Source: an uncultured bacterium
GTDB lineage: Bacteria > Verrucomicrobiota > Kiritimatiellia > CAIKKV01 > CAIJXV01
Assembly: GCA_903824675.1 (NCBI GenBank)
Contig: CAIJXV010000066.1
Coordinates: 1 to 64,000 of the forward strand
Direction: 5' to 3'
DNA: 64,000 nucleotides
The notes under the pieces are model-generated. The model was given only the letters and a program-made list of their open reading frames with translations. It was not told the DNA's origin and did not search any database. Below, piece by piece: positions 288 through 8,525 of this stretch. Each line of letters opens with the position of its first letter. The stretch's first letter is position 1. A program made the translations under genes and the position numbers.

Positions 288-2663
288 ATGACATCCTCCA
301 ATCGTATTACCCACGTTATGGAACCCGTCCTGCCGGATACCTGCGCGGTTTTGACCGTTGCCGGCGCGGACGAGCAGACCCGGCTTTACGCCTTTCCTCT
401 CGCCGATCGGCGCGCAGGGCTCCCCGGCCATTCGAGAGCGCCGGGCGTAAAGCCTTTTGCGCTGCCGATCCTTCAGCGTAGCGGCGAGTGCCTGACGGTT
501 GCCATACCGAAACGCAAGGAACACGCATGGGCTTTTCAAACGTCTCCCGACTTCAATGCGGACGAAGCCTGGATCGTCAACCGACCACGCATTGACTGGC
601 ATTTGGCCTACCGCTGTAATCCCGGCGGCGAGCTGGTGCTGATCGGACGCAATTTGGTTGCGGTGTGCCATTATCCGCGCCCGGATCGGGAACATCCGGT
701 GAGTTTCGGCGGTTTGCTGACGGGAAAGACAAAAGTCGTTGCGTGTCGAAAAGGGACAAAGCGCTTCATTCCGCTTAGGGCGAAGAGTTCCAGCGCCTAC
801 GAAGCGCATGTCGTCCTGCCGTCGGATCTGTTGCCGGGGACGTACGCGGTATACGCACACAGCGGTGTGGGCGGCTCCCAGGGTTGGTCGGATCCCCTGA
901 TGGTCGAGGTCAAACCGGCGGATGTGTGGCCGGATACCGTTTTCGACGCGGATCGCTACATTAAGAAATGTCGCGGGGATATTGACGCGGGCATTGCCCT
1001 GGCGCTGACGGCCATGATCCGGAACAAGGGCGGAATCCTGCGATTTTCGGCACGGGTTTACGGCATAGGAAAAACCATTGTCATGCCGCCGCGCAGCGTA
1101 TTGCGCGGCGCCGGGAAAGACCGGACCCTGCTCCGCCTTCCCGCGGGGGAAGGTCCTAAACCGCCGTTTGTGGCGGTCACGGGCGACCGTGATTTCGCGG
1201 TGGAGGATCTGAGGATCATCGGCGTGCATGCGCCCACGCTGATCTGCGCGCCGCGGTTTGTCGCCGATAATTTTGACGAAGCATTCCTCATGAAGCGGGT
1301 CTGGCATGAATGCCGCGCCTCCGGCATCCGTATCAGCCGTTGTCATCTGGAGCAGATCCCCTTCCAGCACGAAATGCGCCGGAAGGATAAAGATCATCTG
1401 TCCCGCCTGGCGAAAAGCCTGTACATGGGGCCCCAGGGGCTGGGCGTGGAGATGTATCAGGCCGTGATGATTCACGGCGACGACTGCCTGATCGAAGACA
1501 ATACCATCCTGGGCGGTGGACACGCGGTCTGCCTCGACCGTTCGCAGAACATCCGGGTCAGCGGTAATGTGCTCAAGGCCGGGCCGGCCGGCACGGCGCT
1601 CTTCTTTGCGAGCAAGCTGACGTGGCCGGACGATCCCGCCCTGGGCGGGGCGCCCGTTCGCGGCAATTACTGCAACCGGGCCCTGGTGGACGGCAATGAG
1701 ATAACGACTTATTCCGAGCGCGCCCGCAACCTTCTGAGTTTTATATTCGGAGGAGAACGCCTGCATGTCGCCCGCAACCATATTCACGGGATCCAGCCGA
1801 CCAACGATGCGGAGGCGCTCCTGACGCACCTGTGGAGCGCGCGTTGGAGTAGCGCCTCGCTGCGCATGACCGGGCCGGTCACGGGCGAGATCCTGGACCC
1901 CGAAGGCGAACTGGCCCACGAGTGCCTCGAGGACGGCGCGGTGGACATTGTCGGCGGCCGGGGCGTCGGGCAGATTCGGCGGATCCTGTCACGCCAGGGG
2001 AACCGGATTGAAATTGACCATCCCTGGAAAGCGGACCCGGACAATACCAGCCAGGTGGTGTTCACCGCGCCGCCGCCTTTTCATAAGGTGAATCTGGTGG
2101 ACAACAAAGTCATTTCGCAGGCGGTCAACATCATCGTCTGGGGCGTTTCCAACGATGTCATGATTGACGGTAATTATACGGCGGACGGGCCGGGGATCTC
2201 CGTCTGGTCCATCCGCCTGGCCGCAGACCAGAAGGTCTGGGGCGGCGCCGGATTCACGCAAATCATCAACAACACCGTGGATCGCGGTCTCTCGTTCTGC
2301 GAACCGGGTGAAAGTCTGAAGCTGGCCCGGGTCAACGGCATTTTTATTGTCGGGAGCAAGTGGGATTCCGCGCCCTCCCTGGGCTACGATTTTCTGGGGC
2401 TGGTGATCCGCGACAACCGGCTGCTAAACAATACCGGCATTTCCCTGCCGATGACGTACACGAGCGAAGCGGCGGATGGACAGCGCCGGCCTTGGCGTGT
2501 TGATGAATCCGGAATTGTGGTGGAGCGCAATCATCTGCGCGACTGCCATATCGGGATTGTCGTGGAAGACGGCGCCCGCGCCGTGGTGCGCCGCAACACC
2601 TTCAAGAAAGTAGCGTATCCGCTGCTCCGGCCGGCGGGAGATACAGTCCGGGGCCAGCCATAA
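288..2663 (+). CDS. Right-handed parallel beta-helix (pectate-lyase-like) protein
   Basis: This 791-residue protein has an N-terminal beta-rich region (about 1-210) and then the typical opening of a pectate-lyase superfamily helix: GIGKTIVMPPRSVLRGAGKD (about 255-275), where a low-complexity pectin_lyase_3-like coil begins. After it come many coils with VxxNxI/VxGN patterns, such as CLIEDNTILGGGHAVC and VVERNHLRDCHIG. Such folds bind or cleave polysaccharides, or act as structural surface proteins; no catalytic residues can be assigned. No clear signal peptide is visible at the ATG at 288, and the ribosome site there is weak (TTTAAG), so a start at the ATG at 318 is possible. It sits upstream of a transposase-like gene and a glycosidase on the same strand, which suggests a carbohydrate context. 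A long antisense ORF covers its first two thirds and is taken as a shadow. Confidence 0.85.
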   Translation: MTSSNRITHVMEPVLPDTCAVLTVAGADEQTRLYAFPLADRRAGLPGHSRAPGVKPFALPILQRSGECLTVAIPKRKEHAWAFQTSPDFNADEAWIVNRPRIDWHLAYRCNPGGELVLIGRNLVAVCHYPRPDREHPVSFGGLLTGKTKVVACRKGTKRFIPLRAKSSSAYEAHVVLPSDLLPGTYAVYAHSGVGGSQGWSDPLMVEVKPADVWPDTVFDADRYIKKCRGDIDAGIALALTAMIRNKGGILRFSARVYGIGKTIVMPPRSVLRGAGKDRTLLRLPAGEGPKPPFVAVTGDRDFAVEDLRIIGVHAPTLICAPRFVADNFDEAFLMKRVWHECRASGIRISRCHLEQIPFQHEMRRKDKDHLSRLAKSLYMGPQGLGVEMYQAVMIHGDDCLIEDNTILGGGHAVCLDRSQNIRVSGNVLKAGPAGTALFFASKLTWPDDPALGGAPVRGNYCNRALVDGNEITTYSERARNLLSFIFGGERLHVARNHIHGIQPTNDAEALLTHLWSARWSSASLRMTGPVTGEILDPEGELAHECLEDGAVDIVGGRGVGQIRRILSRQGNRIEIDHPWKADPDNTSQVVFTAPPPFHKVNLVDNKVISQAVNIIVWGVSNDVMIDGNYTADGPGISVWSIRLAADQKVWGGAGFTQIINNTVDRGLSFCEPGESLKLARVNGIFIVGSKWDSAPSLGYDFLGLVIRDNRLLNNTGISLPMTYTSEAADGQRRPWRVDESGIVVERNHLRDCHIGIVVEDGARAVVRRNTFKKVAYPLLRPAGDTVRGQP

Positions 2664-2722: not shown

Positions 2723-3610
2723 GTGAAAGATTCAGAGACGGCCACGCATCACCGGCGCTCCATCCGCCTGCCGGGGCACGATTATGCGGCCGGGGGCACT
2801 TACTTCGTCACGATCAATACCGACGAGCGTCGGAAACGTTTCGGCACCCTGGTCAATGGACGCATGGCACTCAACGAGGCGGGGCGCATGGCCGCCGCCT
2901 GCTGGGGCGCCATCCCCGAACACTTCCCGCATGCCTCCCTCGACGAATGGGTCATCATGCCCGATCACGTCCACGGCATCATCACCATCAGGCCCGGCGG
3001 CCGTACCGATGATGGCACGGCATCGCGACCGCTCGCAACACCATCCGCATCCGTACCGACGGGCGCATCCATCACGGGGGACGCATCCAGAGTAAGGGCG
3101 AAAGATTTTTCGCCCCTACCATGTGGGACCGGCACCTCGCGGACGCTGGGATCGATCGTGCGCGGCTTCAAAATCGGGGTCACCAAATCACTGGCCTCCC
3201 GCACGGGCAACGGCACAGCCCCATCCAGCGTCAACGACTGGCCGGTAGCGCCCGTTTGCGTGATCAGCGGTTTCCTAAGCCCACTGGAACGTGGCGTTTT
3301 CGACCAGTGTCTGGCACGCGGCATCCCGATGATCCAGATTCTGGCGCGCGGCCTGCCCACAAGTTTTTCCCCGCGAGTGCAGCGGGCCATCGTGGACGGG
3401 CGATTGCTTGTGCTTAGCCCGTTCCCGCCCGAGCAGGCCAGTTTCAGTACAGTGCGTGCCGCATGGAGCAACCAGTACGTGTTGCATCTGGCACACCATA
3501 TCATCATCGGCCAATTGTCGCCCGACGGCATGCTGGCCTGCCTTCTCGCGGATCTGCCAAACAACAAGCCAATAACATTTTTGTCCAATCGGGAGAACGA
3601 TCATGTTTGA
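2723..3610 (+). CDS. REP-associated (Y1/HUH) transposase-like protein fused to a DprA/SLOG-like domain
   Basis: The 295-residue protein starts at GTG 2723, preceded by AGGAG at 2712-2716; an in-frame ATG at 2666 has no such site. Residues about 10-155 match the IS200-like/RAYT family: YFVTINTDERRKRFG, then WVIMPDHVHGIITI carrying the HUH pair (His82, His84), then SIVRGFKIGVTKSL. RAYTs normally continue with a WQRNYYEHIIR-like segment holding the catalytic tyrosine; that segment is absent. Instead residues about 175-290 read like the nucleotide-binding DprA/SLOG fold: VISGFLSPLERGVF, ARGIPMIQILARGL, FSPRVQRAIVDGRLLVLSPF and AWSNQYVLHLAHHIIIGQLS, resembling the DprA order of SG, TIAVL..GLD, YP..N, G.L.SE.P and RNR.IA. 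The reading frame overlaps the next gene by 8 bases. The N-terminal call is secure. The C-terminal call is pattern-based inference. Loss of the tyrosine suggests a domesticated or non-transposing protein. Confidence 0.8.
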   Translation: MKDSETATHHRRSIRLPGHDYAAGGTYFVTINTDERRKRFGTLVNGRMALNEAGRMAAACWGAIPEHFPHASLDEWVIMPDHVHGIITIRPGGRTDDGTASRPLATPSASVPTGASITGDASRVRAKDFSPLPCGTGTSRTLGSIVRGFKIGVTKSLASRTGNGTAPSSVNDWPVAPVCVISGFLSPLERGVFDQCLARGIPMIQILARGLPTSFSPRVQRAIVDGRLLVLSPFPPEQASFSTVRAAWSNQYVLHLAHHIIIGQLSPDGMLACLLADLPNNKPITFLSNRENDHV

Positions 3611-4874
3611 TGTGAAAGAAGTCTTTACCTCTGAAGACCCGGCCGTGATGCGGCTGACCGGAGAGGTTTTCGATCAGTGTATCCTGGGCAAACTTTTCCC
3701 GGCCGAGCCGCCGATGCGCCACAATTGGATCTCGCCCGGTGGACATTATCGCGGCCAGTGGATCTGGGACACGATGTTCGTGGTCGATTTATTAAGCATT
3801 TTGCCCGGCTATGAGCAGATCATCCGGGATGTTTTTCAAAACTACTGGGACTTTCAGGAACGCTGGAACCGGGCGAAGCCCGATTATGCCCACGACATGA
3901 TTGCCTGCATGGTCGAGCCGGGGAATAACGACTGGATTCACTACCCGGCCTATTCCCAGATTCCGATTCTGGCCTGGGGCGTTGAGCGGGTTTATCGGCG
4001 CACCGGCGACCGGGAACTGGTCCGGCAGTGTCTCGATCCACTGGAACGATTCCACGAGTGGTACTGGCGCGAGCGCGATGTGACGGAAATCGGCCTGATC
4101 GCGGTGGGGTCCTACAGCGAAGTGATTCAGCAGGCCCGTTACGAAACCTTCGACAACGAATGCAATCTGGACGATTTAAAGCTGACCCGGCATCCCCGAC
4201 GGCAAGGCGCGACGGAGGGCTGCTGGTATGGCGATATTTGCGCCGCCGGTAACACGTCCTACCTGATTCAGGGGGAACGAAGTCTCCAGCGGCTGGCGGA
4301 CCTCATGGGCGACCGGTCGATGGCCCTGCGGCGTCAGGCCCGGATTGACAAGGCGGTCGCGGCCATGCGCGCATACATGTGGGATCAGGAGGCCGGCACG
4401 TTCCTATCCATTAACCGGGACACCCTGGGAAAGATCCCCGTGGCCACCATCGGGGGCTGGATCCCGCTGGCCGCCGGGGTGCCGACGGCGGACATGGCGC
4501 GGCGGATGTCGGAGGCGCTGCGCACGCCGGGCTGGCAAACCCCGCTGCCGGTTCCCACGGTTCATCGGATGGACCCGCGTTTTGAGTCCAGCGCCTTCTG
4601 GCGCGGCGATACCTGGCCGGCAACCAATTATCAGATCGCCAGCGGCCTCGCAGCCTACGGCGATCCTGTGCTGGCGGCGGAGATCGCGGATAAAACCGTT
4701 GAGAATGCAATCCGAAACGGCATCAGCGAACGCTACGACTCGATCACCGGTCGGGCGGAAGGGGTTCCCTTTCTGGGGATGACCTGCACGGTCCTCACCC
4801 TGATGCTGGATGGCCTCTGCGAAAAATACCCATTATCTCTCCGCGCGGGCGATAGCAGGCGTTCGCAAGCCTAA
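3603..4874 (+). CDS. (alpha/alpha)6-barrel glycoside hydrolase, GH63/GH37 (MGH1-like)
   Basis: The 423-residue protein shows clan GH-G hallmarks: GQWIWDTMFVVDLL (about 55-68) and SAFWRGDTWPATNYQIASG (about 327-345), followed by ERYDSITG, the usual closing motif of trehalase, glucosidase I and mannosylglycerate-hydrolase-like enzymes. These invert alpha-linked glucosides or related sugars; the substrate cannot be read from sequence. No signal peptide is visible, so it is probably cytoplasmic. The ATG at 3603 lies in the last codons of the transposase-like gene and has GGGAGA at 3592-3597, so the two genes are probably translationally coupled. Length is typical for bacterial single-domain members. 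Confidence 0.85.
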   Translation: MFDVKEVFTSEDPAVMRLTGEVFDQCILGKLFPAEPPMRHNWISPGGHYRGQWIWDTMFVVDLLSILPGYEQIIRDVFQNYWDFQERWNRAKPDYAHDMIACMVEPGNNDWIHYPAYSQIPILAWGVERVYRRTGDRELVRQCLDPLERFHEWYWRERDVTEIGLIAVGSYSEVIQQARYETFDNECNLDDLKLTRHPRRQGATEGCWYGDICAAGNTSYLIQGERSLQRLADLMGDRSMALRRQARIDKAVAAMRAYMWDQEAGTFLSINRDTLGKIPVATIGGWIPLAAGVPTADMARRMSEALRTPGWQTPLPVPTVHRMDPRFESSAFWRGDTWPATNYQIASGLAAYGDPVLAAEIADKTVENAIRNGISERYDSITGRAEGVPFLGMTCTVLTLMLDGLCEKYPLSLRAGDSRRSQA

Positions 4875-4930
4875 GCAACCCGATCGACGGTGGCTGAATA
4901 CTTATGACTGATTTTAAAGGGGTGGAAAAC

Positions 4931-5006
<76 letters not shown>

Positions 5007-6711: not shown

Positions 6712-8525
6712 GTCGAATGGTTGCTGGGCGGAGATGAGGCCTTCTGTGGAAAACAGGGTCCCTGTCCCGAAAGCTGAACCTTTGGCGGAACCATCGAAAC
6801 GGATGATATTTTCGTCGACCTGATTGGAGGCGGAGAAAACGAAAGCGGCCTCAGCGGAGGGAATGGCGGGAATGACAGCCGGGCGCGGATGGTGAAATTG
6901 CTGGAAAGGGGGAGGGTTCCCGGTGCAAACAGGCGGGATGATGCGCCAGTGCTTTCAAGGAAACCCGCGCCGGCTTGCCAGACCCCTTGGGTGATGGCGC
7001 ATACCGACGCTCCGCCGGCGATCCAGACGCCTTTATTGACTTTGTCGCGTTGGTCGGCGATTTCAGCATCGGATAGAGGGGGGATTTCGATTTTTCCCAC
7101 CTTGGCCCAGGCGGCTCGGCCGCCGGGGTAGAGGCGCTCATTCCGTTCCCAACGCGCGGCGCGGCCCCAAAGAGTGTCGGCATAAACACCGAAATACTCG
7201 AAGTAATTAATGTTTTTGAATTTCACCCAGAGATGCCATTGACCGGGATGGGGAACCGTGTAAATCCCCGCGGCGAGCCCCCGGGTGGCGGCATGATCCG
7301 CCGACAATCCGCCGCCGGATCGTTCCCATTGGCCGGTGACAACCGGGAAATGCCCCGGCATGATCCAGGCATAAGAGGCATCGGGGGCAAGCGGGTCAAT
7401 GTCGCCTTCCAGAATTTCGCGTTGGGTCCGGATCCGGTAGGAATTGGCGACCATATTCCAAATGGGATCGAAAATAACCTGGCGTCGAGGATCGCGGTAA
7501 TCCGGCACACCGCCGGCGACAGGATCACGGGGCGGGGCGGCGTAGTCCAATTGGGCAATGGCGTCTGTTTTTTTGCGCCAGAATTCGTAACTGATGGCGA
7601 AGAGCCGGGGATTGGCGGCGGCGGATTCCCAGTGAGTGGGGCGGACTTGCCACAAGGCCCAAAGGGCTTTGTCCGTGGGATTGTCAAGGGCGGGATGATC
7701 GCGGAACTGGGCCTCCTGTGGGGCGATGCGATTGCGCATTTCGGCGCGCAGTTCATCGGAGGGCGCTTCGCGCCAGAGTTCATCGGTCAAATAGAGACAA
7801 TCCACTTGATGGTCGCGAAAAGGTGTTTTTTCAGGGACCTGATAGTAGCGAACGACATGACCCAGGGTGAGGGTGTAATCGCCGGGTTGTAAATCGGCCA
7901 TGAAATCATGCCATAGCGGTGCATTGGTTCCAGCCGGCAATGTATTGAATTCCTCGTACAAGAGGGGCGCCTCATCAGCTTTTCCGGCGTGATGCAGCGT
8001 GAGATGGGTGACGGCGGGGCCATCGGCGTACCCTTTATACCGGATCCAACAGCGGTAAACGCCGCCGCGATCGATGTGCAGGGGAATCTTTTTTTCAGGG
8101 CCGCGATGCGCCGCCTTGCTCACGATCCAGTCCCCGTTGGTTGCCCATCCGGAAACGGGCAGGAGTTCCGGTTCGATCAGAATACGGCAGAGCGTCGGGG
8201 GTGGGGTGGGCGTCGGAACCAGAAGGGACAGCGGATCGATGTTTTGTGTCCGAAGATATTCGTGGAATTGGCCGATCACGGTTGGATTAAGGCTGAAGTG
8301 TCGGAGGGTTAGCCCGATGGAATAAAAGGCGCTTTCGGGTTCGTCCACACAGGCGGAGGATCCCCAGAGATTGAACTCAGGCAGGATCGTTGAGGCCTCT
8401 TTTTTGGGGGGGGACTCTGGGGCTACGTTTGGGGCGGGGGCCGGTGGAGCGGCGAGACCTGAACTGATATAGCCGAATAGAAGGAAAAGGAATAAACGGG
8501 ACTGAAGTGGATGGATAGATTTCAT
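6681..8525 (-). CDS. Upstream part of a frameshifted secreted glycan-active protein
   Basis: The 614-residue frame starts with a signal peptide (MKSIHPLQSRLFLFLLFGYI, cleavage likely after GLAA) and a Pro/Ala linker. Two beta-sandwich carbohydrate-binding-like regions follow: IPLHIDRGGVYRCWIRYKGY (about 150) and GIYTVPHPGQWHLWVKFKN (about 410), both of the kind that places an aromatic face on a sugar. From SSNFTIRARLSF onward (base about 6870) the frame becomes Pro/Ser-rich and non-protein-like, while the neighbouring frame becomes coding. One base appears to be missing near 6865-6870. No slippery heptamer is seen, so this is a real disruption or a sequence error rather than programmed frameshifting. 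Intact, the product would be about 1160 residues. Confidence 0.7.
   Translation of the reverse strand: MKSIHPLQSRLFLFLLFGYISSGLAAPPAPAPNVAPESPPKKEASTILPEFNLWGSSACVDEPESAFYSIGLTLRHFSLNPTVIGQFHEYLRTQNIDPLSLLVPTPTPPPTLCRILIEPELLPVSGWATNGDWIVSKAAHRGPEKKIPLHIDRGGVYRCWIRYKGYADGPAVTHLTLHHAGKADEAPLLYEEFNTLPAGTNAPLWHDFMADLQPGDYTLTLGHVVRYYQVPEKTPFRDHQVDCLYLTDELWREAPSDELRAEMRNRIAPQEAQFRDHPALDNPTDKALWALWQVRPTHWESAAANPRLFAISYEFWRKKTDAIAQLDYAAPPRDPVAGGVPDYRDPRRQVIFDPIWNMVANSYRIRTQREILEGDIDPLAPDASYAWIMPGHFPVVTGQWERSGGGLSADHAATRGLAAGIYTVPHPGQWHLWVKFKNINYFEYFGVYADTLWGRAARWERNERLYPGGRAAWAKVGKIEIPPLSDAEIADQRDKVNKGVWIAGGASVCAITQGVWQAGAGFLESTGASSRLFAPGTLPLSSNFTIRARLSFPPFPPLRPLSFSPPPIRSTKISSVSMVPPKVQLSGQGPCFPQKASSPPSNHSTWKSTDPAII

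Follow-up and report, generated by a model that had tools for sequence, protein, structure and literature searches.

A RAYT-like gene without its catalytic tyrosine is probably a recent deletion derivative of a conserved RAYT-DprA-like fusion

The window (the whole 64,000 nt stretch of DNA that was analysed) contains a gene that joins a RAYT-type HUH domain to a DprA/SLOG-like domain and lacks the catalytic tyrosine. Is this an enzyme that has been given a new role, or one that is broken? The data favour the second answer. We put at roughly 0.8 the probability that the gene is a recent and probably inactive deletion derivative of a conserved RAYT-DprA-like fusion; the window copy is ordinary decay and the intact family is the interesting part. 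The gene and its domains are as follows.

2723..3610, plus strand: RAYT-DprA-like fusion gene, truncated; the protein has 295 aa when started at GTG 2723 (ORF list and sequence)
2747..3199, plus strand: RAYT/TnpA-REP domain without beta4 and Tyr helix; it covers 1-125 of the 165 profile positions (hmmsearch, NF047646)
2966..2974, plus strand: HUH motif (H-V-H), read from the sequence; MPDHVHG spans 2957-2977
3191..3577, plus strand: DprA/SLOG-like domain without its first strand; it covers profile positions 19-153 (hmmsearch, E=1e-38)

The mechanical start of the ORF is ATG 2666, which would give a protein of 314 aa. There is an AGGAG at 2712-2716, six bases 5' of GTG 2723, and this GTG is more likely to be the start of the fusion gene. 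The ORF stays open and in frame as far as its end at 3610.

Each domain call is weak from the window protein alone, but both calls hold. NF047646 matches the N-terminal half at residues 39-111 (E=1.2e-8, 35 bits) and does not reach its curated cut-off of 80, and the RAYT profile built in this analysis gives E=4e-39, covering only positions 1-125 of 165. The H.H is invariant throughout the aligned family (alignments A1 and A4). There is no Y---NP motif anywhere in the window ORF. The preliminary description of the locus had recognised a RAYT half with an intact HUH motif and no catalytic tyrosine, and these results agree with it on both points. A substitute tyrosine elsewhere in the protein was considered and rejected, as the ORF holds no Y---NP and a deleted segment, described below, explains the loss.

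The C-terminal half scores poorly against Pfam DNA_processg_A (PF02481; E=0.057, 13 bits, under the gathering cut-off of 29.6), and even a standalone SLOG relative remains under that cut-off (1.3e-5, 25 bits). The SLOG profile, when run against the PDB, finds pneumococcal DprA (3uqz, E=3e-5). The DprA-like identity, which had also been proposed from the sequence at the outset, is thus weak for the window protein and solid for the family, where the profiles, the 3uqz match and Foldseek bear it out. The 'ASR' loop of the SLOG domain and the HUH residues are kept in the window copy. Like DprA/Smf, the SLOG half has the GN..LL..P..AFL.SR start, the SGF..P.E, GRLL.SPF and ..RN/CNQ.. segments and a Rossmann fold that matches 3uqz and 4ljk. 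It differs from DprA/Smf in falling below the Pfam cut-off and in having no recognised second DprA domain, and the stretch of about 25 residues expected for DprA helix 1 is replaced in the fusions by variable, often palindrome-bearing linkers. In the window copy beta1 is missing as well.

Predicted structures of low-to-moderate confidence agree with the sequence evidence. An AlphaFold model of an intact relative, L003 (pLDDT 71.5, from a nine-sequence alignment and no templates), was compared with the PDB using Foldseek. The RAYT half matches TnpA-REP with its hairpin (4er8) and the TnpA proteins of ISDra2 and IS608, and the SLOG half matches DprA (3uqz, 4ljk/4ljl) and the DprA-like antitoxin ShosA (8zva). 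The model of the window protein (pLDDT 72.4, pTM 0.46) has no beta4, Tyr helix or SLOG beta1, and its PDB matches are weaker and mostly partial; it still matches the DprA fold weakly over about 100 columns. The best fold match of both models is ShosA (8zva/9vzo), which has no RAYT domain, and the resemblance is that of DprA-like proteins only.

The C-terminal half was searched against 289 genomes of the phylum and has relatives in 51; many of these relatives are long ORFs in which a full RAYT precedes the C-terminal domain. When a profile of the entire fusion was run against 346 genomes of the same class (probably Kiritimatiellia), at least 77 gave a full-span match (start no later than position 25 and end at or beyond 260 of 312 profile positions, counted among the matches listed). 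We collected 46 distinct fusion ORFs, of which 42 include the RAYT N-terminal half; both HUH and Y---NP are kept in 39 of these 42, and the Tyr motif is missing from the window copy, L005 and L155. L043 equals L004, the member in G074 of the same class, in fusion ORF length and in profile scores. RAYT followed by SLOG in a single ORF is, as judged from these sequences, a conserved architecture that the window copy shares, with domains left incomplete by a 180 bp deletion. Two lineages of RAYT that lie well apart (types A and C together, and type B) carry the fusion, so on sequence grounds the association involves no fewer than two of them.

The closest intact relative, L140, comes from another family of the same class and, outside the gap described next, is 79% identical to the window protein. 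The two are sisters in both domain trees (support 100/100 for SLOG and 100/99 for RAYT). Alignment of the two genes gives one large gap of exactly 180 bp, or 60 codons, in frame.

3191..3194, plus strand: deletion junction with CTGG microhomology, at which 180 bp (60 codons) of L140 have no counterpart (LGESPWHRNYYEIIVRDRRALNAIRAYIRNNPANADVRRYGPLRFAVGNRELCKLPRTAF)

The 60 codons encode RAYT beta4, the Tyr helix (AYIRNNP) and the first SLOG strand at the start of that domain (GNRELCKLPRTAF). It follows from this alignment that the SLOG domain comes after the Tyr segment and never replaced it. Replacement, as first suggested for this locus, is ruled out by L140 and 38 other intact fusions, in all of which SLOG stands after the Tyr segment. 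The deletion is private to the window copy. The other two Tyr-less fusions are broken differently: as we read their sequences, L005 has another and larger deletion, and the middle of L155 appears to be out of frame.

There are further arrangements among the relatives. The RAYT half of L143 (ORF 1312-2457, minus strand) groups with plain RAYTs of other phyla and its SLOG half is of type A, a pattern that suggests exchange of the RAYT half. In L142 a standalone DprA-like SLOG ORF (954-1508, minus strand) overlaps a RAYT-SLOG ORF (1309-2553, minus strand), and in L071 such an ORF (6767-7333) lies about 2 kb from a plain RAYT; standalone SLOG ORFs of this kind are a possible source of the fusion. 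In L158 (692-1690 and 3374-4174) the SLOG half is duplicated about 2 kb downstream with the same protein sequence and without the RAYT half.

In its features the fusion resembles RAYT subclass 2.4 of Quentin et al. (2018; PMC6006769, available in part): there is the same HUH, a profile match and a linker after the HUH with an in-frame REP-like palindrome, a likeness judged by these features. Intact fusions are RAYT-like in having Y---NP and in their fold match to 4er8. They are unlike subclass 2.4 in the extra DprA-like C-terminal domain, and the window copy is further distinguished by the absence of beta4 and the Tyr helix. According to the available part of the same paper, subclasses 2.1 and 2.3 likewise consist of a RAYT core with an added C-terminal domain, but a different one (HTH/Bac_DnaA_C or unknown domains), and that part makes no mention of a DprA/SLOG domain among RAYT C-terminal additions. 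Our literature search, with subscription literature mostly beyond its reach, found no paper joining RAYT with DprA/SLOG. The fusion family is widespread in bacteria and apparently undescribed.

In the linker of the window copy, a palindrome lies between the HUH and the place of the missing Tyr; the deletion junction follows it at a distance of about 70 bp.

3092..3119, plus strand: REP-like palindrome GTAAGGGCGAAAGATTTTTCGCCCCTAC, in frame, of the double-foot type with one foot base changed

Its core is unique in the genome. Such palindromes are in excess in 24 fusion ORFs (28 versus 2.9 in codon shuffles) and in 78 plain RAYTs (76 versus 5.4). We do not regard them as a new discovery, as the available text of PMC6006769 already reports in-gene REPs between HuH and Y for TnpA-REP subclass 2.4. 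Of the palindromes GGCATGGYATGCCATGCC / GGTTTGGCATGCCAAACC, G074 has three copies and G203 has one, each of them within the fusion gene (L004, G074:C23:94388-94723; L003, G203:C246:13961-13978). By this pattern there is no copy elsewhere in either genome, and they would be REPs confined to the RAYT gene itself. Next to or inside the RAYT domain, L132 (ORF 511-2433, minus strand) has in-frame tandem RHAVAPSTP repeats and L156 (ORF 959-2161, minus strand) has APPRGCPNE/DEP repeats, as if REP units had been multiplied within the gene.

The genome that carries the window copy is a draft of 4.24 Mb in 124 contigs (96% complete). The window copy is the only RAYT-SLOG fusion found in it; two further RAYT-like ORFs (contigs C1 and C27) belong to another type that lacks SLOG, and a normal DprA is encoded on contig C2 (E=2.9e-76). 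Carriage by a plasmid or a phage was rejected, as the fusion gene has no plasmid match and its HUH half has a single match among viral contigs. The gene lies between two others.

288..2663, plus strand: right-handed beta-helix protein (Pfam PF13229), upstream neighbour
3603..4874, plus strand: MGH1-like glycoside hydrolase (Pfam PF22422, 5e-44), a neighbour outside the system

With its ATG at 3603, the glycosidase gene shares 8 nt with the end of the fusion gene, stop codon included, so the overlap noted in the preliminary description is real. The coupling that it was taken to mean is rejected: RAYT-SLOG is absent from the fetched flanks of the glycosidase orthologues in G304, G521 and G298, and the L140 contig has no glycosidase within 16 kb. 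The glycosidase is a chance neighbour and the overlap is not conserved. The beta-helix gene was not found near fusion relatives. Just past the glycosidase gene, the stretch 4924-5000 looks like a minus-strand tRNA gene.

Between the window gene and L140, dN is 0.12 and dS 0.58-0.69, giving a dN/dS of about 0.2, which indicates purifying selection; this comparison is limited to L140, since more distant relatives are saturated. There is no excess of amino-acid change on the window branch relative to the L140 branch (HUH, 3 versus 4; SLOG, 5 versus 6). This leaves two possibilities, a recent deletion or a remnant that still matters. We infer the former and favour a recent deletion over continued selection on the remnant. 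The 60 codons were lost between two CTGG tetranucleotides, probably by slippage. Because the tyrosine helix is among them, the window protein should be unable to cut DNA by HUH-Y chemistry. E. coli TnpA-REP loses its activity when the tyrosine is mutated; truncating its C-terminus seriously impairs both binding and cleavage, and some of its contacts to GTAG are located around beta4 (PMC8266576). By analogy with these mutants the window protein would be inactive and probably a poor REP binder, and we infer that its gene is most likely a recent non-functional relic that stands in an operon by chance.

The preliminary description had instead proposed a domesticated enzyme. The protein would then be a catalytically dead regulator that binds REP or single-stranded DNA or senses nucleotides; the deletion would have been selected and would have left a binding protein that perhaps acts on or with the glycosidase operon. 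An in-frame deletion with an open ORF, the low dN/dS, the retained HUH and SLOG motifs and the translational overlap with the next gene are all consistent with this. However, a deletion has a one-in-three chance of being in frame and selection is unnecessary to explain it. This one is private to one genome and removes structural strands of both domains, and the regions needed for REP binding in E. coli TnpA-REP (beta4 and the C-terminus; PMC8266576) are among those affected. In addition, the REP core has no second copy in the genome, and the linkage with the neighbour is not conserved. We therefore consider domestication unlikely.

It is more improbable still that the true gene is intact and that 180 bp were dropped in metagenome assembly. 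The genome is a draft in many contigs and palindrome-rich genes can trouble assembly, but the junction repeat of 4 bp is too short for k-mer collapse, the palindrome lies upstream of the junction and not at it, and the join is clean and in frame. That fragments of a RAYT and of a SLOG protein were joined de novo in this lineage, with no descent from the intact family, might be read from the window copy alone and can be given almost no credence, as both halves are closest to a single intact protein, L140 (at the tree support given above), which contradicts it, and the junction maps to one deletion.

The recent deletion derivative is thus the preferred reading, and the intact members deserve attention. 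We expect their HUH-Y domain to bind a REP hairpin and, by means of the Y---NP tyrosine, to cleave the strand and join it again. The Rossmann domain of DprA binds ssDNA and mediates the dimerisation needed for RecA loading, with contacts in HpDprA at R52, K137 and R143 (PMC4489622). By analogy, the DprA-like domain of the fusions may hold or protect the exposed single strand, or dimerise, or recruit RecA. A bolder reading, which we hold to be less likely than not, is that intact fusions are single-polypeptide machines: a REP-hairpin nuclease would pass the cut strand to the DprA-like domain for protection or RecA loading, REP mobility would thereby be tied to homologous recombination, and the association would have arisen with two or more RAYT lineages.

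The window copy carries a caution: a lone RAYT without its Tyr should be checked for a deletion before it is called domesticated. For the movement of REPs by RAYTs, and the host factors that take over the cut single strand, fusion to a domain of the RecA-mediator type points to a concrete partner pathway, and the recurrent natural fusion supplies single proteins in which this may be tested.
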